From Synechococcus sp. JA-2-3B'a(2-13) (lineage in GTDB: Bacteria > Cyanobacteriota > Cyanobacteriia > Thermostichales > Thermostichaceae): a stretch of DNA of 64,000 nucleotides. The DNA lies in assembly GCF_000013225.1 (NCBI RefSeq), contig NC_007776.1, positions 1,011,277-1,075,276 on the forward strand, read 5' to 3'. Shown piece after piece: positions 3,690 through 60,116 of the stretch. Position 1 is the first letter of the stretch, and every line of letters starts with the position of its first letter. Below the pieces are notes generated by a model. That model worked only from the letters and a program-made list of their open reading frames with translations, was not told where the DNA came from and did not search any database. The position numbers were made by a program, and so were the translations under genes.

Positions 3690-3741
3690 GGCAGTGGGGG
3701 TTGGGTTCCAGATGCCTTATTCAGCTAGAAATCGCAGGAGC

Positions 3742-3772
3742 CCCGCACTGTACCCGTAGGGTCAGTGTCGGG
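3742..3772 (+). repeat. Left-end subterminal hairpin of IS copy 1
   Basis: The stem is CCCG, CACTG, a bulged T, ACCC, loop GTA, then GGGT, CAGTG, T, CGGG. Copy 2 has the same sequence except C instead of T before the final CGGG. In the IS200/IS605 family such hairpins are recognised by TnpA. Confidence 0.75.
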
Positions 3773-3798
3773 AGGAATGCGGAAGTTATGATAGAACC

Positions 3799-4992
3799 AT
3801 GACCCAAGTCCTGACCGTCTCCTGCAAGCTCAAGGTGTCCCAGTCGCAGGCCGCAAAGTTGGATGCGACAATGGATGCCTTTGTGCAGGCGTTGAACTGG
3901 GTCAACCAAAACACACCAGAAAAAGTAGTCAACGCAGTCAAACTCCAGTCCCTTTGCTATTACCAGATTCGCGCTCGGTTTGGCTTGTCCAGTAACTTGG
4001 CTCAACAGGTGTGCAGACGGGTAGCGGGTTCCCGCAAAGTGGCTAAGCAGAAAAAGCGTCCCGTCAAGGAGTTTAAGAGCGGCTTTGTTACCTACGACGC
4101 CCGTATCTTTTCGTTCCGTCAAAAAGACTGGACGGTGTCGCTGACCACGGTGGAGGGTCGGGAGCGCTTTGAGCTGGCGATTGGCCGTTACCAGAGAGAA
4201 CAGTTGGCAGGCTCCAATCCCAAATCTGCCACTCTGGTCAAGCGCAAAGACGGTTTCTACTCCATTCAAATCTGTGTGGAAACGGAGCCATCCCCACCGC
4301 AAGGCACGGATAGAGTGCTGGGCGTGGATTTGGGAAGGACGGATATTGCTCATACATCGGAAGGAGATAACTGGAATGGACAGCAGTTGAACAAAGTCCG
4401 CGACCACTACTCCCGGTTGAGGGCGGTACTCCAACGCAAAGCCAGTAAGGGCACACGCAGTTCGCGGCGCAGATGCCGTCAACTGCTGCAACGGCTGTCT
4501 GGCAAGGAGAGACGCTTTCAAGCGTGGGTTAATCATCGCATCTCCAAAGCTATTGTCTCCAGGGCAAAAGCTACCAACAGTGCTATCGCTCTGGAAGACC
4601 TGACAGGGATCCGGGAAAGGGTTAATCAACAGCCACGGAGCAAGACAGAGCGTAGACGGGCCAACAACTGGGCGTTTTATCAACTCCGTCAATTTTTGGA
4701 GTACAAGGCTCTGCGTGCGGGGGTTGCTTTGATTCTGGTGCCGCCTGCCTACACGTCGCAGACCTGCCACCGGTGTTTGCACATTCATCCCGACCCTGCG
4801 CAATCCTACCGCAGTGGAAAGAAGTTTAAGTGTGGACACTGTGGATGGGAAGGGGATGCGGATTTGAATGGTGCGAATGTGATTGCGCTTTTGGGGGCTG
4901 CTGTAAACCAGCCTAGAGGTTCGTGGTTGGCTTGCCAACTGCAGGGCTACCGAAAGCCCGCCCTGTACTGCGAAGCAGTCAGGGTCGGGTAG
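3799..4992 (+). CDS. tnpB: TnpB, RNA-guided nuclease of IS200/IS605-type element (copy 1)
   Basis: A 397-residue OrfB/TnpB protein. The RuvC-like triad appears intact: D in LGVDLGRTDIAH, E in ALEDLTGIRERV, and D in GDADLNGANV. A four-cysteine zinc finger (CHRCLHIH ... CGHCGW) precedes the last motif. Family knowledge: TnpB uses an omega RNA made from the element's right end to cut DNA matching the flanking guide, which helps retain the element. The ATG at 3799 aligns with the ATG of copy 2. The last codons run through the right-end hairpin, so the tail (LYCEAVRVG) differs completely from copy 2 although the cores are almost identical. Confidence 0.9.
   Translation: MTQVLTVSCKLKVSQSQAAKLDATMDAFVQALNWVNQNTPEKVVNAVKLQSLCYYQIRARFGLSSNLAQQVCRRVAGSRKVAKQKKRPVKEFKSGFVTYDARIFSFRQKDWTVSLTTVEGRERFELAIGRYQREQLAGSNPKSATLVKRKDGFYSIQICVETEPSPPQGTDRVLGVDLGRTDIAHTSEGDNWNGQQLNKVRDHYSRLRAVLQRKASKGTRSSRRRCRQLLQRLSGKERRFQAWVNHRISKAIVSRAKATNSAIALEDLTGIRERVNQQPRSKTERRRANNWAFYQLRQFLEYKALRAGVALILVPPAYTSQTCHRCLHIHPDPAQSYRSGKKFKCGHCGWEGDADLNGANVIALLGAAVNQPRGSWLACQLQGYRKPALYCEAVRVG
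4957..4989 (+). repeat. Right-end hairpin of IS copy 1 (likely omega RNA 3' end)
   Basis: CCCG, CCCTG, bulged T, ACTGC, loop GAA, GCAGT, CAGGG, T, CGGG, followed by TAGTTTAC at the element end. The architecture matches the left-end hairpin, and matches the copy 2 right end with different but compensating stem bases. By family analogy the omega RNA scaffold would end here and the guide would be the flank from 4998 onward. Confidence 0.7.
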
Positions 4993-4993
4993 T

Positions 4994-5797
4994 TTACTTG
5001 CCCATCTGTAAGCGGGCGCTGGTGCGGGGGGCGCCATCCTGCACAATCCAGGTGCGGACGATCTCCACTTCCTCCGGCGTCCAAAAGCCCAGACGGGACA
5101 GGGGCAGCCCGCGAGCTTGAATGTAAGCAATCTCAGGGGATCCGCCGCGAGCTTGGGGGCGGTTGGGGTTAATGGCGTTGAGGATGTAGGCGTGGCGGCT
5201 CGTCCACCGGGGATTGATCAACTCGCTATTGGGATCCCCGGGCCTGACATAGGCCATCGTGGCCTCATAACTGTCCAGCAACTGGGTGCGCTGCCGTCCT
5301 GCCGGCTGATGGCAACCCACACAACTGGCTTCTAGCAGCGGTTTGACATCCCGTTCGTAGGTAAATTGCGGTTCGGTGCGAAAACTCAGCTGAATGGCCT
5401 GCTCGAGGGGCAGCCCCTCTTGGGGAGAAAGCGTGAGGGTGTAACGGGTGCTAAAGCGCAAGGGATCCCGAGGCTTAAGCAACAACTCGTCTCCCTGCAC
5501 ATCAAAAATAACCGCTGCCGGCGGATCCAACTGAACCGCCAGACGTTGTAGATTGGGATCCAGTGGCCGATTGAATTGCAGCCGAATGACTCCATCCACA
5601 AAAACATCCTGCTGTTCGGGGGTAGGCTGGGAAGACACCCACTCCAAAAATGCCTGACTTTGAGAAGCATTCGACTGAGGCCAAACTTGCCGATGAGACT
5701 CGATGACAAAGAACGCTGCTGCCAACAACAACAGCCCCGCCCAAGTTCGCCACCGCCGCCAATGGCGAAAGACATTTGGCACGGTCGGAGTGTTCAT
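4994..5797 (-). CDS. Membrane-anchored protein with Ig-like domain and cytochrome c haem motif
   Basis: A 267-residue protein with an arginine-rich N-terminus and one hydrophobic segment (residues 20-31), so it is probably anchored with the rest outside the cytoplasm. The middle (about residues 60-145) resembles the bacterial Ig-like SbsA type (VIRLQFNRPLDPN ... FSTRYTLTLSPQEGLP). A single haem-binding CVGCH is at residues 159-163, in a segment like those of Planctomycete-type cytochromes (DVKPLLEASCVGCHQPAG). The function is unknown; redox activity is inference from the motif. IS copy 1 supplies the stop codon and part of the last codon. Removing the IS would give the same ending, MGK followed by a stop. 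Confidence 0.7.
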   Translation of the reverse strand: MNTPTVPNVFRHWRRWRTWAGLLLLAAAFFVIESHRQVWPQSNASQSQAFLEWVSSQPTPEQQDVFVDGVIRLQFNRPLDPNLQRLAVQLDPPAAVIFDVQGDELLLKPRDPLRFSTRYTLTLSPQEGLPLEQAIQLSFRTEPQFTYERDVKPLLEASCVGCHQPAGRQRTQLLDSYEATMAYVRPGDPNSELINPRWTSRHAYILNAINPNRPQARGGSPEIAYIQARGLPLSRLGFWTPEEVEIVRTWIVQDGAPRTSARLQMGK

Positions 5798-13597: not shown

Positions 13598-13977
13598 AAG
13601 AAATAAAGACGGCCCTGCTGAGTGGGTGATGCTGCTGGGAATAGGCAAATCTGCTTCCTACTCATTCTAGTCGTCTGGTGTTGGAGGGATCCGGACAACC
13701 AAGCCAGCCCTCCCCCAGAAGGATTCAGACTATGCTGAAATCATAGCGATCCCTTGCCAGCTTGAGGGATCTGTGGAGCATGCCTCTAACCCCCAAAACC
13801 CTGAACTTTGCTGAATTTACTGAGCTTTAGGCGGTTTGGCAAAAGTCATTGAGAGGGATATAGTAGACCAAGTTTCCCCCTGATCCTTGAGTCCACCGCA
13901 ACGGTTGCCGGGAAGTGAAGGGGGAAAGCGCTCGGGGGGTATTCCTCAGGGCTTTGCGGGATACCGCCTTCCTGCTT

Positions 13978-14000
13978 GGACTCCGTCCCGCTGACGCGAA
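13978..14000 (+). repeat. SGTES-type two-hairpin repeat, intergenic copy
   Basis: GGACTCCGTCC then CGCTGACGCG then AA: the GGAC/GTCC and CGC/GCG stems are intact. This is the reference form of the family described in the findings. Confidence 0.75.
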
Positions 14001-28176: not shown

Positions 28177-28182
28177 TGCAAC

Positions 28183-28290
28183 AACGAGGAGAGAGGAAAG
28201 AGCAAAGAGAAAAGAGCAACGAGGAGAGAGAAAAGAGCAAAGAGAAGAGATTCCTCCTTCTCACTTCTCACTCCTCCCTTCTCACTCCTC
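28183..28290. repeat. Purine-rich 35-bp tandem repeat followed by pyrimidine tract
   Basis: Two 35-bp units begin at 28183 and 28218 (AACGAGGAGAGAG then AAAGAGCAAAGAG), almost pure purine on the plus strand. From 28251 the strand switches to a pyrimidine run with repeated CTTCTCACT. It lies directly upstream of the cupredoxin start on the minus strand. Confidence 0.7.
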
Positions 28291-36335: not shown

Positions 36336-37646
36336 CTACCTGCTCAGCCGCCCCAAGGCCAGGCGCGGTCTTCTACGGCTCAGTTGACGCTTCAGACAAA
36401 GCTGCCGGAGTTTTCGCCGCCGCAAGCGGAAGGGTCTATGGGCCAGGGATCCCGCTGTGGACAGTTCCGGTGCAGAAGCCTGCATTTTTTGGCTGAGCTC
36501 TTGATGGTGTTGGCGGAGATCCTCAATCTGCTTGAGGCGAGTCTCCAGCTCTCGGCGCAGTTCGGCGTTTTCTTTTTCCAGACGCTGCAGGCGTTTCAGC
36601 AGCTCTGAGGACTCCGTTCCGCTGACGCGGTCGGAAACTGGGATGGGATGGGGAGCAGTCACCACCGAGCTGTGCACATTCCTGCTATCTCGCATAGCCT
36701 GGGCAGCCCGACGCAACAGAGCCACCCCCTTGGGGTCATCGCTGTCCATGAGGCTGGCCGCTCCAAACTGGAGCTGTACCGGCAGCGCCCGTCCATTCAC
36801 CACAAAGGGATCCTGAATCATTCGCTGGCAGCAGCGTTCGGCAGCAATTTGCGCAGCAGCCAAGGTGCTCCCGGAGAGCAGAATGATAAACTGCCCCTCG
36901 TCGTAGCAAAACAGGTCGTCTCCATCGCGCAGGTTATTGGCCAAACGCTCCCTAAACAGTTTGAGCAGATCAGCCCGACCGTCAGCATCCAGCCCTTGTG
37001 CCAGAGAACCGAGGTTGGCCAAGCGCAGCACAAACAAGCTGAGGGGTTCCGATTGGGCACGGGCCTGGGCCACCCGCAGCGGCAAACGAGCCACCAAATC
37101 CTGACGGTTACCCACCTCCAAACCAATCGACTTGGGGGGAGAGGGAGGAGATTTTTGCCCAGTTTTGAGCAGATATTGCTGGCGGCGACTTTCTACAATG
37201 CGCAGCCCTGCCCGCACCCGCGTCAGCAGCTCTGCAGCCTGAAAGGGTTTGGAAAGAAACTCATCGGCACCTGCCTCCAAAGCCCGCTCCATGCTATCGT
37301 TGCCCTCGCGGGCAGTCATGATGATGTAGTACACCCAGGCATATTCCGGCAATTGCCGCAGTTGGCGGCACAGGTCTAGGCCGTTCAGAGAGGGCATGAC
37401 CCAGTCGGCAATGATGAGGTCTGGGGGTTGGCGGCGAATTTGCTCCAGCGCGGAGAGGCCATCCAAAGCATAAGAAATACTGCAGCCCTGCTTGCCCAAA
37501 AAGTTGGACAGCATCTCTGCCACCATGTAGCTATCATCCACAATCAGTACACGGGCTTGCAGACTGCCGTCTTGACTTCTGCCAGAGACGAGTTTCGCCT
37601 TCTCAGGCGCAGGAGCTGCACTAGCGCTCTCCGGTCTGGGATCCAT
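36336..37646 (-). CDS. Response regulator with degenerate GGDEF domain and coiled coil
   Basis: 436 residues from the ATG at 37646. The receiver domain (about residues 33-150) has the phosphoacceptor Asp in LIIADWVMPSLNGLD, plus the conserved T (IIMTARE) and K (LSKPF). A GGDEF-like domain follows (about residues 180-330), but its signature loop reads CYDEGQFI instead of GGDEF, so no cyclase activity is expected. Then comes an RVSGTES insertion from the repeat at 36609-36632, a coiled coil (LLKRLQRLEKENAELRRELE) and a very basic tail (FRLRRRKLRQLCLKRQLSRR). The tail may bind nucleic acid or membrane; this is a guess. Confidence 0.82.
   Translation of the reverse strand: MDPRPESASAAPAPEKAKLVSGRSQDGSLQARVLIVDDSYMVAEMLSNFLGKQGCSISYALDGLSALEQIRRQPPDLIIADWVMPSLNGLDLCRQLRQLPEYAWVYYIIMTAREGNDSMERALEAGADEFLSKPFQAAELLTRVRAGLRIVESRRQQYLLKTGQKSPPSPPKSIGLEVGNRQDLVARLPLRVAQARAQSEPLSLFVLRLANLGSLAQGLDADGRADLLKLFRERLANNLRDGDDLFCYDEGQFIILLSGSTLAAAQIAAERCCQRMIQDPFVVNGRALPVQLQFGAASLMDSDDPKGVALLRRAAQAMRDSRNVHSSVVTAPHPIPVSDRVSGTESSELLKRLQRLEKENAELRRELETRLKQIEDLRQHHQELSQKMQASAPELSTAGSLAHRPFRLRRRKLRQLCLKRQLSRRRPRLALGRLSR
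36609..36632 (+). repeat. SGTES-type repeat inside the response-regulator gene
   Basis: GGACTCCGTTCC then GCTGACGCGGTCGG. On the coding minus strand it reads DRVSGTESS, in frame, between the degenerate GGDEF domain and the coiled coil. Confidence 0.8.
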
Positions 37647-37694
37647 AGATAAACCGAGGCAGGGTGGCGCGGGAAAGCAAACTACCCGCAACTT

Positions 37695-47434: not shown

Positions 47435-47536
47435 CACAAGCGGCGACCAGCCCAAATACGCCTCAGTCGGCAGCCCAACCGGTGAATTGACGAAGGCGAG
47501 CGCCGCCCAGTGGCGGTACTCTAGAAGGTGTTCTAA

Positions 47537-47609
47537 GGACTCCGTCCCGCTACTGCGATGAGTAAGTCCATGCAAGCGATGGCAAGGACTCCGTCCCGCT
47601 ACCGCGACC
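47537..47609 (+). repeat. Two tandem SGTES-type repeats spanning the start of the histidine phosphatase gene
   Basis: The first copy, 47537-47559, is GGACTCCGTCC then CGCTACTGCGAT. The second, 47586-47609, is GGACTCCGTCC then CGCTACCGCGACC. The CGC/GCG stem is kept while its loop varies. The second copy encodes RTPSRYRDQ at the protein's N-terminus. Confidence 0.8.
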
Positions 47610-48970
47610 AGCCTGCCCTGCGCATCTTGATCGTGCGCCATGGTGAGAGCACCTTCAACCTGGAAAATCGCATTCAAGGCCGCTCCGATCTCTCCCGGCT
47701 CACCCCCACTGGAGAAGTGCAGGCGCAGCGTGTAGCCGAGGCCCTGGCCGGGATCCCGTTGGATTGCGCCTATTGCAGCCCCCTGTCTCGCGCCCTCGAT
47801 ACCGCTCGCGTCATTTTGAAAGACCGAGAAGGGATCCCTCTGCACGTTACCGATCAACTGCGGGAGATCGACCTGACGGCCTGGGAAGGGCTGACCTTTG
47901 CTGAGGTGAAGGAGAAATACCCCGAGGATTACCATCTGTGGCGGCACCATCCCGACAACCTGGAGCTGGAGGGCCGCTTTCCGGTGCGGGATCTCTGGCA
48001 GCAGGCGCAGGGGTTTTGGGAAATGCTGGCTTTCCATCTGCAATCGGCTTCGGGCCCCTGGAACCATGGAGCGGATCCCTCCCCAAGGCAGCCCCTCAAT
48101 ATCCTCATCGTGGGCCACAGCGGCATCAATCGCGCCCTGGTCAGCACCGCCATCGGCCTGGGGCCACACCACTATCACCGCCTTGGGCAGGATAACTGCG
48201 CCATCAGCGTTCTCAATTTTCCCGAGGGCCTGCAGGGGCCGCCACAACTGGAATCTCTGAACATCACCGCTCACCTCGGCCAAGCCCTGCCCAAGCGCAA
48301 GCAGGGGATGCGCATCTTGCTGGTGCGGCATGGGGAAACCCAATGGAACCGAGAGCGCCGTTTTCAAGGGCAGCGGGATATCCCCCTCAATGCCACCGGG
48401 GAGGAACAGGCAGCCAAGGTGGCAGAATTTTTGGCCACTCAACCTCTGCAACTGGCCTTCTCCAGCCCCCTGAAGCGCCCTTGGGCCACAGCCGATGCCA
48501 TCTGCAGCAACCACAGCAACCTCATTTTGCGCCCAATGCCCGACTTGCAAGAGATCTGCCACGGCGACTGGGAGGGCAAGCTGCAAAGCGAAGTCGAAGC
48601 CGAATACCCCGGCGAGCTGGAGCGCTGGCAACGGGATCCCGCCAGTGTGCAAATGCCCAATGGGGAAAACCTTCACCAGGTGTGGGAGCGCACTCGCTTG
48701 GCCTGGCAGGAGCTTTTGGCCATCACTGCAGCCCAGTTTCCTCAGGGCACGGCGGTTGTTGTTGCCCACGATGCCATCAACAAAGCAATCCTCTGTCAGT
48801 TATTCAACCTTTCCCCACAGGCTTTTTGGATCTTCAAGCAGGGGAATGGTGCCATTACGGTGATCGACTATCCAGAAGGCAAGGAGGGTGCCCCGGTTTT
48901 GAAGGTGTTGAACCTCACCACCCATCTGTCGGGCCAGATCTTGGACTGCACCACCGCTGGAGCTTTGTAA
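47558..48970 (+). CDS. Tandem histidine phosphatase (phosphoglycerate mutase-like) protein
   Basis: 470 residues with two complete histidine phosphatase domains. The first has VRHGESTFN near residue 26 and GHSGINRALV; the second has VRHGETQWN near residue 255 and AHDAINKAIL. Both catalytic histidines and acidic residues (LREIDLTAWEG, LQEICHGDWEG) are present, so both halves may be active. Cyanobacterial members of this family act on phospho-sugars or serve as CA1P-type phosphatases; the substrate here is unknown. The N-terminal 12 or so residues come from the repeat. The next gene starts two bases after the stop. Confidence 0.88.
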   Translation: MSKSMQAMARTPSRYRDQPALRILIVRHGESTFNLENRIQGRSDLSRLTPTGEVQAQRVAEALAGIPLDCAYCSPLSRALDTARVILKDREGIPLHVTDQLREIDLTAWEGLTFAEVKEKYPEDYHLWRHHPDNLELEGRFPVRDLWQQAQGFWEMLAFHLQSASGPWNHGADPSPRQPLNILIVGHSGINRALVSTAIGLGPHHYHRLGQDNCAISVLNFPEGLQGPPQLESLNITAHLGQALPKRKQGMRILLVRHGETQWNRERRFQGQRDIPLNATGEEQAAKVAEFLATQPLQLAFSSPLKRPWATADAICSNHSNLILRPMPDLQEICHGDWEGKLQSEVEAEYPGELERWQRDPASVQMPNGENLHQVWERTRLAWQELLAITAAQFPQGTAVVVAHDAINKAILCQLFNLSPQAFWIFKQGNGAITVIDYPEGKEGAPVLKVLNLTTHLSGQILDCTTAGAL

Positions 48971-50319: not shown

Positions 50320-50383
50320 TCCCGAAGAAGGCCGACAAGACCTGTCCGGAGAAAGAGCCAATTCAAAGAGGGGGATCCCTTCC

Positions 50384-50402
50384 CGCCAGCGGGACGGGGT
50401 CC
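50384..50402 (-). repeat. SGTES-type repeat, minus-strand copy between dihydroorotase-like gene and ileS
   Basis: On the minus strand GGACCCCGTCC then CGCTGGCG. It lies in the short convergent intergenic gap, six bases from the ileS stop. Confidence 0.65.
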
Positions 50403-50407
50403 CGAAT

Positions 50408-53251
50408 TCAAAACTCCCCGGCCAGAGCGGCTACACAACGCTCACACAGCTCTGGATGTTCGGCAAATTCCCCCACACGGGTGGAATAGTTCCAGCAGCG
50501 CACGCACTTTTGGCCGTCAGCCGGAAAAACAGAGACCTCCAAGCCTTGACCTGAGGTTTTCTCCAGTTCCACCTGTGAGGTGATGAACAAGTAGCGCAAC
50601 TCGGCAGCCCGCTCCTGCAAAAGAGCGTATAGGCTGGGATCCGCTACCTTCAGGATTACCTTGGCCTCGGTGGAAGCGCCGATGGGCTTAAAGGACTCCG
50701 TCCCGCTAACGCGACCGGTACGGGCTTGCTCCAGAGCCTTGTTCACCTCTTGGCGCACCTCTCGCAGCTGCTCCCAAATGGCCGCCAACTGGGGATCCCG
50801 CCAGTGCTCCGGCAGCTTCATCCACCCCCCCTCAAACACCGAACGGGTGGGCTTGGGATAGGGCAGATGGCTCCAAATCTCTTCGGCCAGGTGGGAGAGA
50901 ACGGGGGCGATGGCCTTGGCCAAGTTCTCCAGCAACAGGGAGAGCACCGTTTGACATTGTCGCCGCCGCAGACTTTGGGCATGGCTGATGTAGAGGCGAT
51001 CCTTGGCAATATCCAGGTAAAAGTTGGAGAGATCCACCACACAAAAGTTCTGAATCGCCTGGAAAAATCGGTAGAACTGATAGCTGGCAAAAGATTCGCC
51101 GATCTCGGATCCCACCTCGTGCAGGCGGTGCAAAATGTAGCGGTCTAGCTCCGTCAAGGCTGCAAAAGGAACGGCATCCTGAGTTGGATTGAAGTCGTAG
51201 AGGTTGCTCAGCAAAAAGCGAGCTGTGTTGCGGATTTTGCGATATACATCCGCCATTTGCCCAAGAATGGTCTTACCCAGCGGCACATCCCCGGAGTAGT
51301 CCACACTGGAGACCCACAGGCGCAGCACATCCGCCCCGTAGGCGGGATCCGTCTGGGGATCTTTGCCGCCGTTGATTAACACCAGCGGATCGATGACATT
51401 GCCCAGGGACTTGCTCATTTTCTGGCCCTTCTCGTCCAGCACAAACCCATGGGTGAGCACCGCCTTGTAGGGGGCATGGCCGTTGACGGCCACGGAGGTG
51501 AGCAAACTGGATTGGAACCAGCCTCGGTGTTGGTCGGAGCCTTCCAAATACAGATCCACCGGGTAGCCCAACCCCTGCGCCTTGGCCACTGCCGCCCAGG
51601 AAGAGCCGGAGTCAAACCAGACATCCATAGTGTCCATCCCTTTGCGGTAGGTGCGGCCATTGTGGCGGTACTTCTCCGGCAGCAACTCCTCCACCGGGCG
51701 CTTCCACCAGGCGTCGGATCCCTCTTGGGCGAAGATGGCCTTGATGTGGTCGAGGGTCTCGGCGGTGAGCAAGGGCTCGCCGGTTTCTTCGTCGTAAAAG
51801 ACGGGGATGGGCACGCCCCAAGCCCGCTGGCGGGAAATACACCAATCCGAGCGCTCCGACACCATAGCAGTGATGCGGTTCTCCCCGATGGCCGGGATCC
51901 ATTTCACGGTTTTAATGGCCTGCAGGGCCAGCTCCCGGAAGCCAGCTACAGACGCAAACCACTGCTCGGTGGCCCGGAAAATCGTTGGCTCTTTCGTGCG
52001 CCAGTCGTAGGGATATTTGTGGTTGTAGGGCTCTTCCTTGAGCAAAGCCCCCGCAGCCTGCAGAGCCTGGATGACAGCAGCATTGCCGCTGGTCTCCGGC
52101 TTCTTGGAGAGCACATCCAACCCGACGAACTGGGATCCGGCCTCGGCGGTAAATCTCCCCTGATCGTCCACAGGGCTGAGAATGGGCAGACCATACTTTT
52201 GGCCGGTTTTGAAGTCATCTTCCCCATGCCCCGGAGCTGTGTGCACAATGCCGGTGCCGGACTCGGTGGTGACATAGTCCCCCAGCACGCAGAGGCTGGC
52301 GCGGTCAAAGAGGGGGTGCCGTCCTTGACTGTATTCCAGGGCGGATCCCGGCAGGGTGGCCTTGATCTCCAGAGGCGTCTCCAGAACCTTCTCCAGCCGC
52401 TCCCGCAGATCGGCGGCGATCAACAGCAGGCCGAAGCGGGGAGACTCCACCACTGCATAGGTGAGCTTGGGGTTAAAGCAGAGAGCCAGGTTGGCCGGGA
52501 TCGTCCAAGGGGTGGTGGTCCAGATGGCTGCCCGCAGGCCCGGCATGAAAGGCTCCAAAACCGGCTGCGCCGCCGGACTCAGGCTCTGTAGCGGAAAGGC
52601 CACGTAGATGCTGGGGGAGATGTGGTTGTCGGGGTACTCCAGCTCCGCTTCCGCCAGAGCCGTCTGGGAGCTGGGGCTCCAGTGGACGGGTTTGAGGCCG
52701 CGGTAGATGTAGCCCTTGAGGGCCATTTGTCCAAACACCTCAATCTGTGCGGCTTCGTACTCCGGCGACAGCGTCAGGTAGGGCCGATCCCAGGATCCCC
52801 ATACCCCCAGGCGCTGAAAACTGGCCCGCTGCACATCAACGTAGTGCAGGGCGTACTCCTTGGCTTTTTGTCGCAGCTGCAGAGGGGTGAGGTTTTCCCG
52901 CTCCTGCGGAGTGAGGCTTTGCAACACTTTCAGTTCGATGGGCAGGCCGTGGCAATCCCAGCCGGGCACGTAGCGCACCTTGCGCCCCTGCAGGATGTGG
53001 TACTTGTTGACGATATCCTTGAGGATCTTGTTGAGGGTGGTGCCCATGTGGATATCGCCATTGGCGTAGGGCGGTCCATCGTGCAGGACAAAGGGATCCC
53101 CAGGATTGTGGTCGGCAAGGCGCTGGTAGATTTGCTCTTCCTGCCAAAAGGCTTGAATGGCGGGTTCTCTCTTGGCGGCCTCTGCCCGCATGGGAAACTG
53201 AGTTTGGGGCAGGTTGAGGGTACTTTTGTAGTCCACGGCAACTCGAGCCAA
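50408..53251 (-). CDS. ileS: Isoleucyl-tRNA synthetase
   Basis: 947 residues. Class I signature PYANGDIHMGTTLNK (HIGH equivalent) and KMSKSLGN are present, as is the editing domain (TTPWTIPANLALCF). The C-terminal zinc-binding cysteines are in KCVRCWNYS and LCERCVAAL. The length is standard for a cyanobacterial IleRS apart from an RVSGTES insertion near residue 850 from the repeat at 50693-50716, between the tRNA-binding helices and the zinc region. The enzyme charges tRNA-Ile. It is a single-gene unit. Confidence 0.97.
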   Translation of the reverse strand: MARVAVDYKSTLNLPQTQFPMRAEAAKREPAIQAFWQEEQIYQRLADHNPGDPFVLHDGPPYANGDIHMGTTLNKILKDIVNKYHILQGRKVRYVPGWDCHGLPIELKVLQSLTPQERENLTPLQLRQKAKEYALHYVDVQRASFQRLGVWGSWDRPYLTLSPEYEAAQIEVFGQMALKGYIYRGLKPVHWSPSSQTALAEAELEYPDNHISPSIYVAFPLQSLSPAAQPVLEPFMPGLRAAIWTTTPWTIPANLALCFNPKLTYAVVESPRFGLLLIAADLRERLEKVLETPLEIKATLPGSALEYSQGRHPLFDRASLCVLGDYVTTESGTGIVHTAPGHGEDDFKTGQKYGLPILSPVDDQGRFTAEAGSQFVGLDVLSKKPETSGNAAVIQALQAAGALLKEEPYNHKYPYDWRTKEPTIFRATEQWFASVAGFRELALQAIKTVKWIPAIGENRITAMVSERSDWCISRQRAWGVPIPVFYDEETGEPLLTAETLDHIKAIFAQEGSDAWWKRPVEELLPEKYRHNGRTYRKGMDTMDVWFDSGSSWAAVAKAQGLGYPVDLYLEGSDQHRGWFQSSLLTSVAVNGHAPYKAVLTHGFVLDEKGQKMSKSLGNVIDPLVLINGGKDPQTDPAYGADVLRLWVSSVDYSGDVPLGKTILGQMADVYRKIRNTARFLLSNLYDFNPTQDAVPFAALTELDRYILHRLHEVGSEIGESFASYQFYRFFQAIQNFCVVDLSNFYLDIAKDRLYISHAQSLRRRQCQTVLSLLLENLAKAIAPVLSHLAEEIWSHLPYPKPTRSVFEGGWMKLPEHWRDPQLAAIWEQLREVRQEVNKALEQARTGRVSGTESFKPIGASTEAKVILKVADPSLYALLQERAAELRYLFITSQVELEKTSGQGLEVSVFPADGQKCVRCWNYSTRVGEFAEHPELCERCVAALAGEF
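50693..50716 (+). repeat. SGTES-type repeat inside ileS
   Basis: GGACTCCGTCC then CGCTAACGCGACC. On the coding minus strand it reads GRVSGTESF, in frame, so IleRS carries the repeat-derived peptide in a surface-exposed C-terminal region. Confidence 0.85.
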
Positions 53252-53560: not shown

Positions 53561-53685
53561 TTCCAGTTGAAGGCCCGCTAGACCGCTCTTTCCCTGACCG
53601 CCTGTTGTTGCCTTGGGGGTGGGAGAGAGCGGATAGTTTTGCAGATAGCTGTAGCGGGGCTTGGAATGGACGGGCGTGTAAACTA

Positions 53686-53717
53686 CCCGGCTCCGACCGC
53701 TAAGCGGTACGGAGCGG
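53686..53717 (-). repeat. Right-end hairpin of IS copy 2
   Basis: On the minus strand CCCG, CTCCG, T, ACCGC, loop TTA, GCGGT, CGGAG, C, CGGG. Relative to copy 1 the stem bases changed on both sides together (CCCTG/CAGGG to CTCCG/CGGAG, ACTGC/GCAGT to ACCGC/GCGGT), so the fold is under selection. Confidence 0.75.
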
Positions 53718-54893
53718 GCTTTCAGTAGCCCTGAGCCTGCTCTGCTCTACCAGAGAACAAAACAGGCCCGAACCTCTAGGCTGGTTTACGGCAGCCCCCA
53801 AGAGCGCAATCACATTCGCACCATTCAAATCCGCATCCCCTTCCCATCCACAGTGCCCACACTTAAACTTCTTTCCACTGCGGTAGGATTGCGCAGGATC
53901 GGGATGGATGTGTAAACACTTGTGACAGGTCTGCGACGTGTAAGCAGGCGGGACCAGTACTACAGACACTCCGGCGATGGCAGCCTTGTAGGCCACAAAC
54001 ATCCTAAGCTGGTAGAACGCCCAACTGTTGGCCCTGCGCCGCTCGGCTTTGTTGCGTGGCTGTTGATTGACCCTTTCCCGGATCCCTGTCAGGTCTTCCA
54101 GGGCAATAGCGCTGTTTGTGGTCTTTGCCCTAGAGACAATAGCTTTGGAGATGCGATGATTGACCCACGCCTGAAAGCGCCTCTCCTTGCCAGACAGCCG
54201 TTGCAACAGTTCTCTGCATCTGCGCCGCGAACTGCGTGTGCCCTTACTGGCTTTGCGTTGGAGTACCGCCCTCAACCGGGAGTAGCGCTCTCGGACTCTG
54301 CTCAACTGCTGTCCATTCCAGTGATCTCCTTCCGATGTATGAGCAATATCCGTCCTGCCCAAATCCACCCCGATCACCTTGTCGGTATCTTGTTGCTTGG
54401 GTGGCTTTTTCTCTACGCAAATCTGGATGTAGTAGGAGCCATCTTTGCGCTTGACCAGGGTGGCAGCTTTTGGGTTGGAACCAGCCAGCATCCCACGCTG
54501 GTAGTTGCCAATGACCAGTTCAAAGCGTTCTCTCCCTTCCACCGTGGTCAGCGACACCGTCCAGTCTTTTTGACGGAACGAAAAGATGCGAGCGTCGTAG
54601 GTAACAAAGCCGCTCTTAAACTCCTTGACGGGACGCTTTTTCTGCTTAGCCACTTTGCGGGAACCCGCTACCCGTCTGCACACCTGTTGAGCCAAGTTAC
54701 TGGACAAGCCAAACCGGGCTCGAATCTCGTAGTAGCAAAGGGATTGGAGTTTGACTGCGTTGACTACTTTTTCTGGTGTGTTTTGGTTGACCCAGTTCAA
54801 TGCCTGTACAAAGGCATCCATCGTCGCGTCCAATTTGGCGGCTTGCGACGGGGACACCTTGAGCTTACAGGATATGGTCAGGACTTGGCTCAT
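53700..54893 (-). CDS. tnpB: TnpB, RNA-guided nuclease of IS200/IS605-type element (copy 2)
   Basis: 397 residues from the ATG at 54893, the same length as copy 1. The DED triad (IGVDLGRTDIAH, ALEDLTGIRERV, GDADLNGANV) and zinc finger (CHKCLHIH ... CGHCGW) are intact. Differences from copy 1 are scattered, with a cluster of changes around MLAGSNPKAATLVKRKDGSYY and a distinct C-terminus (SLVEQSRLRATESPLRTA) because the right-end sequence differs. The stop codon lies in the loop of the right-end hairpin. Probably active as a guided nuclease by family analogy. Confidence 0.9.
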   Translation of the reverse strand: MSQVLTISCKLKVSPSQAAKLDATMDAFVQALNWVNQNTPEKVVNAVKLQSLCYYEIRARFGLSSNLAQQVCRRVAGSRKVAKQKKRPVKEFKSGFVTYDARIFSFRQKDWTVSLTTVEGRERFELVIGNYQRGMLAGSNPKAATLVKRKDGSYYIQICVEKKPPKQQDTDKVIGVDLGRTDIAHTSEGDHWNGQQLSRVRERYSRLRAVLQRKASKGTRSSRRRCRELLQRLSGKERRFQAWVNHRISKAIVSRAKTTNSAIALEDLTGIRERVNQQPRNKAERRRANSWAFYQLRMFVAYKAAIAGVSVVLVPPAYTSQTCHKCLHIHPDPAQSYRSGKKFKCGHCGWEGDADLNGANVIALLGAAVNQPRGSGLFCSLVEQSRLRATESPLRTA

Positions 54894-54995
54894 AAGTTCA
54901 TTGTACTTCATCAAAGCGCATTCCTCCCGGCACTGACCCTACGGGTACAGTGCGGGGCTCCTGCGATTTCTAGCTGAAGATGCCAGTGTTTCTTG

Positions 54996-55244: not shown

Positions 55245-56159
55245 CTAAGGGACGGTGGGGATGGCCAGGGATCCCTCCAGAGCCAAGCGATCGCTGACGA
55301 TAAGACGCCGACTCTCCAGCGTGATGCCGGTTTGGTTAACCAACATCACAGAAATCCACTCAGAACGGGGTTCTTGCGGAGCATCTGCCTGTAGGAAGAT
55401 CCCTCCGGCCTGTAGGGGTTCGAGAGCAAACGAAGTCACCTCTGGGTAGCCCGCCCCGGCAACGGGTTGTTCGGCAACGGCGCCCAACAGCAAAGAGTGG
55501 GTGAGAGGCTCTGCCACAATCGCCTGCAGCGAATAGGTGGATCCCGGTTTGACCACCTCCGGCAGGTTCAAGGTGACGGTGGGAGGGGCAGATCCAGAGG
55601 TGAGGGTGCTGGCCTCCCGCAGCACTTCTTGGTCAATCAACAGCAGTTGTCCGGGATTGGCTGGATCCGGGCGATAGCGATTGCGCACCAGGGCAGAGGC
55701 TTCTACCTGAAAGTCCCCCCGCACCGAGGATTGGGATCCCTCTACTTGGCTGAGAATATCGGCAACAATCTCAGGGCCCACCTGCCGCCAGGAGAGGATC
55801 TGGGCCGAATAGGTGAGTTCAGGATGAGAGCTCCACAGCTTGCGGATGGCACCTTCCACCTCTTCCCGGTCCAGCCCATCTCGGTGGCGGAAGTCGGGGC
55901 TGTAGCCGGCCATCACCCCTGGCAAATCCCGCCGGTTGGCGGCGGCCACCTGCTGGCTTAGCCACTCCACCAGGGCGGCTGGCGGTGGGCTGGAAACTTG
56001 CCGCTGGATCCCACTTTCTAGGGGCATCGGGGCAGCTTGGGCCCAAGCCGAGGACTCCGTCCGGCTGACGTGACCGGCTGTCAATCCAAGGGGGATGCTC
56101 CAGCTCACGGCCAGAGCAAGGGGCCAAAGCAGTTGCGGAAAGTTAGATCGGGATTTCAA
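55245..56159 (-). CDS. Exported protein of unknown function with NTF2-like region
   Basis: 304 residues. The signal peptide (LLWPLALAVSWSIPLGLTAG) is followed at once by HVSRTESSAWAQ, derived from the repeat at 56052-56077, and the probable cleavage site is at or just after it. A region at about residues 60-165 (WLSQQVAAANRRDLPGVMAGYSPDFRHRDGL) looks like an NTF2/SnoaL-type fold; the C-terminal part is beta-rich (GSTYSLQAIVAEPL ... GITLESRRLIVSD). No active site recognised. Probably periplasmic. Confidence 0.65.
   Translation of the reverse strand: MKSRSNFPQLLWPLALAVSWSIPLGLTAGHVSRTESSAWAQAAPMPLESGIQRQVSSPPPAALVEWLSQQVAAANRRDLPGVMAGYSPDFRHRDGLDREEVEGAIRKLWSSHPELTYSAQILSWRQVGPEIVADILSQVEGSQSSVRGDFQVEASALVRNRYRPDPANPGQLLLIDQEVLREASTLTSGSAPPTVTLNLPEVVKPGSTYSLQAIVAEPLTHSLLLGAVAEQPVAGAGYPEVTSFALEPLQAGGIFLQADAPQEPRSEWISVMLVNQTGITLESRRLIVSDRLALEGSLAIPTVP
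56052..56077 (+). repeat. SGTES-type repeat inside the exported-protein gene
   Basis: GGACTCCGTCCGG then CTGACGTGACCGG. On the coding strand it reads GHVSRTESS, in frame, directly after the signal peptide, a place that tolerates insertions. Confidence 0.8.
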
Positions 56160-59700: not shown

Positions 59701-60116
59701 CAATACCATCTTAGACGAGATCTCAAGAGGCACAGGAGTCCGGCTCCTCTACTCTAGCCTGTCCCTGCAACCCAATCCCCTTCAAGAACTCCGTCCGAGT
59801 GGCGCGAACGGCCTCGTCGCCACAGGGTTGCGGTTCCCCTGCCCATGGCAACAACTCCGCCAGAGACAGGGCGGGTGACGGTAAGCAACAATGCTCTCTT
59901 AAATCCCTTAAATTCCCTTAAATCAAGTTGCCCAAGGGCTTTTCCACCCCGCACTCAAGTACAGGGCTACCAAGCTATTCCCTGGTGTAGTTTTGTAGAG
60001 TGTGTTATGGAGTGCGCCATCGGGACGGAGTCCCTGACAGTTGGACAAAGTCTGCAGGATCAGGAGCGCTCGATCTGAATCTTCTCGATTTCAATCCATT
60101 GAATCCATCTGAACCT
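59701..60116. other. Repeat-containing intergenic region upstream of cpcT
   Basis: 416 nt without a gene. It holds a diverged SGTES-type copy on the plus strand (59786-59811, GAACTCCGTCC then GAGTGGCGCGAAC). A minus-strand copy is at 60012-60033 (GGACTCCGTCC then CGATGGCGCAC). Three CTTAAAT motifs start at 59898, 59907 and 59917. Confidence 0.6.
59898..59923 (+). promoter_or_regulatory. Triple CTTAAAT direct repeat upstream of cpcT
   Basis: CTTAAAT at 59898, 59907 and 59917, spaced 9 and 10 bp, close to one helix turn. Tandem heptamers of this type often bind OmpR/PhoB-family regulators, but the sequence and spacing do not match the cyanobacterial Pho box exactly. Confidence 0.4.

Follow-up and report, generated by a model that had tools for sequence, protein, structure and literature searches.

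The isoleucyl-tRNA synthetase (IleRS) of Synechococcus sp. JA-2-3B'a(2-13) carries near residue 850 a peptide, RVSGTES, whose coding DNA is a short repeat with further copies inside and outside genes. This raises the question of whether the peptide is an old part of the enzyme or an insertion, and, in the latter case, how a repeat of this size enters an essential gene in frame and by which route it may move.

The RVSGTES peptide of isoleucyl-tRNA synthetase

In the window, i.e. the whole stretch of 64,000 nucleotides that was analysed, the ORF at 50408-53251 on the minus strand is ileS, as identified by PDB matches, which encodes an IleRS of 947 aa and is the sole gene for this enzyme in the genome. 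The sequence-only reading had placed a full repeat in frame near residue 850 and this is borne out, RVSGTES being residues 847-853 (codons 50713-50693) in the context ...EQART-G-RVSGTES-F-KPIGAS..., where G-RVSGTES-F covers residues 846-854. It had also located the repeat at 50693-50716; a repeat does lie there on the plus strand, but the mobile unit proper is the 24-nt sequence AAGGACTCCGTCCCGCTAACGCGA at 50691-50714 (+), two bases off, the complement of which encodes G/RVSGTES/F in ileS and within which the core GACTCCGTCCCGCTAACGCG is matched exactly at 50694-50713.

Each of the 107 other cyanobacterial IleRS loci that span the site (two overlapping collections, in which a few species are counted twice) has exactly 8 residues fewer, within the 7-9 residue gap that had been predicted for an insertion, and none has alignable residues in place of RVSGTES. 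In pairwise alignments, the proteins of congeners run ...EQART-DKL/DKV-IGASTEAK... across a gap of exactly 8 residues; the segment is also missing from the IleRS structures solved for other bacteria. At the DNA level, a clean 24-bp gap is present in all five congeners, the empty site reading CTTA^TCGG in the closest relative, G004, whose IleRS is 96% identical, and CTTG^TCGG, CTTC^TCGG, CTTG^TCAG and TTTG^TTGG in the other four. The target tetranucleotide, at 50715-50718 (+), is CCGG here and TCGG at the empty site of G004 according to the DNA alignment. Because the G004 site is empty, the insertion took place in this genome's line of descent once it had separated from G004. An ancestral stretch of IleRS lost in the relatives would also be read in frame, which is the one point in its favour, but its absence from 107 of 107 other cyanobacterial loci and from the solved enzymes of other bacteria, together with a coding DNA that is a repeat with about 300 copies in the genome, leaves this reading a negligible probability; the empty sites rule it out. 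It is thus highly probable that RVSGTES is a recent insertion, in this lineage, of a dispersed mobile 24-nt repeat, an explanation taken here as a whole and including the single-stranded DNA route considered below.

Since the gene is the only one for IleRS, its frame is open and the flanking residues align, the enzyme has presumably kept its function, in agreement with what the sequence-only reading had proposed. In the predicted structure, the insert lies in a loop (845-862) that joins helix 820-844 to strand 863-869, with pLDDT <50 at 848-853 and a well-predicted helix and strand on either side; on this model, the eight added residues are a flexible connector or loop, and the element would have persisted in ileS by sitting there.

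The 24-nt repeat family

Core copies with at most 3 mismatches number 6 in the window, against 0.01 expected from shuffling, and 264 in the genome, a single contig of 3,046,682 bp, where the control gives 0. A pattern scan, for which the reversed-pattern control returned 0-1, found about 301 copies in this genome and 278, 76, 29, 49 and 94 in five congeners, 0 and 6 in the remaining family members and 0-2 beyond the family; as judged from these counts, the 24-nt family is a genus-restricted dispersed repeat. One exact copy is also found at G023 904113-904136, in a genome from another family of the class, possibly by transfer between lineages. The 264 cores are divided 139/125 between the strands, and both orientations occur throughout the sampled chromosome, without any switch along it (about 2.3 to 3.0 Mb lies outside the sample); a replication-linked orientation bias was rejected on these grounds. 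No match to the 24-nt element was returned by an Rfam search or by a sequence-based literature search of limited coverage.

The related peptides that had been pointed out in two other proteins of the window are each confirmed and derive from a copy of the element: RVSGTES in the response-regulator ORF 36336-37691 (-) from the copy at 36607-36630 (+), and HVSRTES in the exported-protein ORF 55245-56159 (-) from that at 56050-56073 (+). Both sites are filled in G004 as well, in diverged form, and both peptides are therefore older than the ileS insert. Further core matches lie beside the start of a phosphatase-like ORF, 47558-48970 (copy at 47535-47558, +), immediately downstream of ileS (a diverged copy at 50381-50404, -, genome 1061658) and at 60012-60035 (again diverged, on the opposite strand, -, genome 1071289). 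In ORF 47558-48970, the copy at 47584-47607 (+) is part of the reading frame, close to the N terminus (..ARTPSRYRD..), its loop being TAC and not a stop, and the one at 13976-13999 (+) is part of a larger repeated sequence, with the same flanks elsewhere in the genome (L022, L024, L026). Among other repeats, the window holds two inverted copies of about 1.1 kb with 87% complementarity, at 3713-5006 and 53669-54985, which together span most of its length, as well as a purine-rich short tandem repeat (CAACGAGGAGAGAG...) at 28182-28250.

The limits of the unit were taken from 20 stretches of this genome compared with the matching places in G004 and G001. Exactly 24 nt are absent from the relative in 25 copy/relative comparisons, 12 with G004 and 13 with G001, some of which concern one copy compared in both; for tandem copies, the relative is without 48 bp. 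With free gap placement, the left end of the unit falls before AAGG in most cases, and the empty sites read H^TCGG, with the variants TCAG, TCGA, TTGG and TGGG. No target duplication is seen in the empty/filled pairs compared. Of 11 such pairs, 5 show a change in the base that follows the insert on the right, whereas nearby positions change in about 1; these numbers are small. Such variability is not expected under simple cut-and-join at a fixed target.

The consensus is AAGGACTCCGTCCCGCTRRCGCGA followed by WCGG, and the family pattern is AAGGnnCTMCGnnCCGCTNNCGCGA, with two mini-hairpins per unit, GGAC-TCC-GTCC and CGC-TNNC-GCG. When the inner stem positions were left free in the scan, the inner pairs of the first stem were GA/TC (126), TG/CA (28), CG/CG (17) and GC/GC (9), all complementary, and this stem is fully paired in 163 of 193 copies, the shuffles giving a mean of 87 and a maximum of 100. 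The compensatory changes among these four stem types thereby show a constraint on the fold of the first stem; the second one hardly varies and so brings little covariation evidence. The AAGG strand is predicted to fold as two hairpins in all four stem types and, as folding energies are no better than those of shuffles, the two-hairpin structure rests on the compensatory changes. The GC/GC subfamily, AAGGCCTCCGGCCCGCTGCCGCGA, also forms tandem arrays of 2 to 4 units, at G000 261088, 533022, 842758 and 3023396.

Regarding turnover, copies common to G004 differ by 11.6% in the element and by 6.9% in the flanks (14 pairs), and at some shared sites the two genomes hold different subfamilies at the same position, as at window 36607-36630 compared with L081 of G004 (CCGCTGACGCGG here, CCGAGTAGCGCGA there), which suggests conversion or replacement in place, or else reinsertion. 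For about 46 of the 150 copies examined, the surrounding sequence is repeated as well, and larger repeats that carry the element thus account for part of its copy number. Among these carriers is the IS605-type element of this genome, made up of a Y1 TnpA and a divergent TnpB-like ORF; it has copies of the 24-mer near both ends (L132 1428-1475 and 3166-3190), one of which lies within the hairpin loop of the right end, where the TnpB-like ORF reads through it.

Copies within genes and candidate routes of movement

Genes were predicted by a simple hexamer-based caller, and 105 of 193 copies (54%) lie inside them, against 86% of HTCGG targets (p about 1e-25, a value that is too small, since copy-rich regions are over-represented in the sample and since copies on larger repeats or in tandem are not independent); such depletion would follow if insertion into genes is often harmful. 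Persistence within genes would be favoured by the length of the unit, 24 being a multiple of three, and by the four of six frames that are stop-free regardless of the loop sequence; the 17 copies read in the stop-prone forward frame all have loops free of stops, which is partly built into ORF-based calling. Could RVSGTES then be kept by selection in several proteins, as a functional tag or linker? The frame concerned is used by 43 of the 105 in-gene copies (41%), as such selection might require, but the phase of HTCGG sites in genes already predicts 41%, copies are depleted in genes, and those shared with G004 diverge faster than their flanks (11.6% vs 6.9%). Peptide selection is accordingly very improbable, being ruled out by the match to target phase and by the depletion, and since the frame follows the codon phase of the target, the recurrence of RVSGTES needs no special explanation.

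As for the movement itself, a copy would be made as a single DNA strand folding into two mini-hairpins, and this folded strand would be inserted at TCGG with the help of an enzyme acting in trans. The leading candidates are a Y1/HUH-type transposase and, alternatively, annealing of strands at the replication fork. Spread by reverse transcription of an RNA copy, the route reportedly proposed for cyanobacterial SDRs, would fit the two conserved hairpins on one strand and the insertion without target duplication; it is weakened, and rated unlikely, because no RVT_1 match is found in the six genus genomes while the same search is positive in three control genomes and in two of the three less closely related genomes. 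In a more specific form of the folded-strand explanation, a Y1 transposase of IS200/IS605 type would carry the element along as a minimal passenger and insert it immediately 3' of CCGA, as read on the complementary strand. The target and junction format, the lack of duplication and the subterminal hairpins speak for it, as do the missing RVT_1 genes of the genus and, in this genome, an intact Y1 TnpA that has a TnpB-like ORF next to it; Y1_Tnp genes occur in all six genus genomes. Against this, the strand that has CCGA 5' of the element is not the one that folds best, the better-folding strand having the tetranucleotide on the other side, the copies in IS ends are inserts rather than the ends themselves, and copy number does not follow Y1 number. 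In G004, Y1 matches are interrupted or fragments, with no uninterrupted full-length one, yet there are 278 copies, and an order-level relative has Y1 genes and zero copies of the element. A passenger of this kind is thus conceivable but tentative, and strand annealing or another DNA route carries about equal weight. IS605 ends are also improbable as the parent of the element, copies of which lie inside the right-end hairpin of the IS rather than forming its ends. No mobilising enzyme is tied to the element, and a strong lagging-strand bias gets no support from the orientation data.

In broader terms, the ileS locus offers a clean before/after view of an essential gene that has taken up a mobile DNA unit, among the smallest of its kind, and the length of the unit, its target and its frame rules can be read from sequence. 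Besides, clean empty sites and a genus free of RVT_1 genes make the movement of tiny repeats testable in a group with cultured members. The fuller proposal, namely that the element is mobile without an RVT_1-type reverse transcriptase, perhaps as folded single-stranded DNA joined at TCGG, and that other subfamilies come to overwrite its copies at the sites they occupy, is a doubtful one at this stage. To our knowledge, such a combination of reverse transcriptase-free mobilisation and in-place overwriting is undescribed for elements so small.

Relation to known small repeats

By analogy, the tolerated insertion within a gene would be of a kind already known from other bacteria. Rickettsia palindromic elements are selfish repeats found in frame in unrelated housekeeping genes (PMC10969869), to which the insertion in IleRS is alike, but they are about 150 bp long against 24 nt here. 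REP/REPIN sequences are short hairpin repeats possibly moved in trans by RAYT (Y1) transposases (PMC3116915); REPs are extragenic and their tagged super-families carry GTAG or CGTC (PMC3733652), whereas the 24-nt element has no GTAG/CGTC terminal tag and 105 of 193 copies within predicted genes. Miniature transposable elements were described from thermophilic Synechococcus by Nelson et al. 2012 (cited in PMC10969869). Although from the same organism group, the present element is of 24 nt, with no target duplication seen. Those of Nelson et al. are reportedly larger MITEs. Insertion beside a fixed tetranucleotide without duplication (H^TCGG), with a variable adjoining base, is a junction format like that of IS200/IS605 insertion, as generally known for that family.

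The closest likeness in description is to the SDRs of cyanobacteria, which, following Elhai et al. 2008 (Genome Res. 18:1484), are said to be 21-27 nt long, with a shared fold, compensatory changes and copies inside minitransposons, and for which a reverse-transcriptase-copied RNA intermediate was reportedly proposed by the same authors. Repeats with a CGCTACGCGAACG tail and an upstream hairpin are known from Nostoc-type genomes; one with this tail and an upstream TCTC/GAGA hairpin was found in 19 of the 116 genomes searched and is absent from this genus. The SDRs of Nostoc and relatives (Elhai et al. 2008, cited in PMC4390886 and PMC3116915) are likewise tiny, many-copy, cyanobacterial and precisely placed, SDR5 for instance being inserted between nucleotides 3 and 4 of HIP1 (PMC4390886). 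Compared with these examples, the 24-nt element has a different sequence and target (H^TCGG), is confined to one genus and is found in genus genomes from which RVT_1 is absent. Considering its 24-nt unit, its 301 copies, its four compensated stem types and the recent mobility seen from empty sites, and being set beside SDRs by description rather than by sequence match, it is best called a well-resolved member of the SDR-type small mobile repeats.
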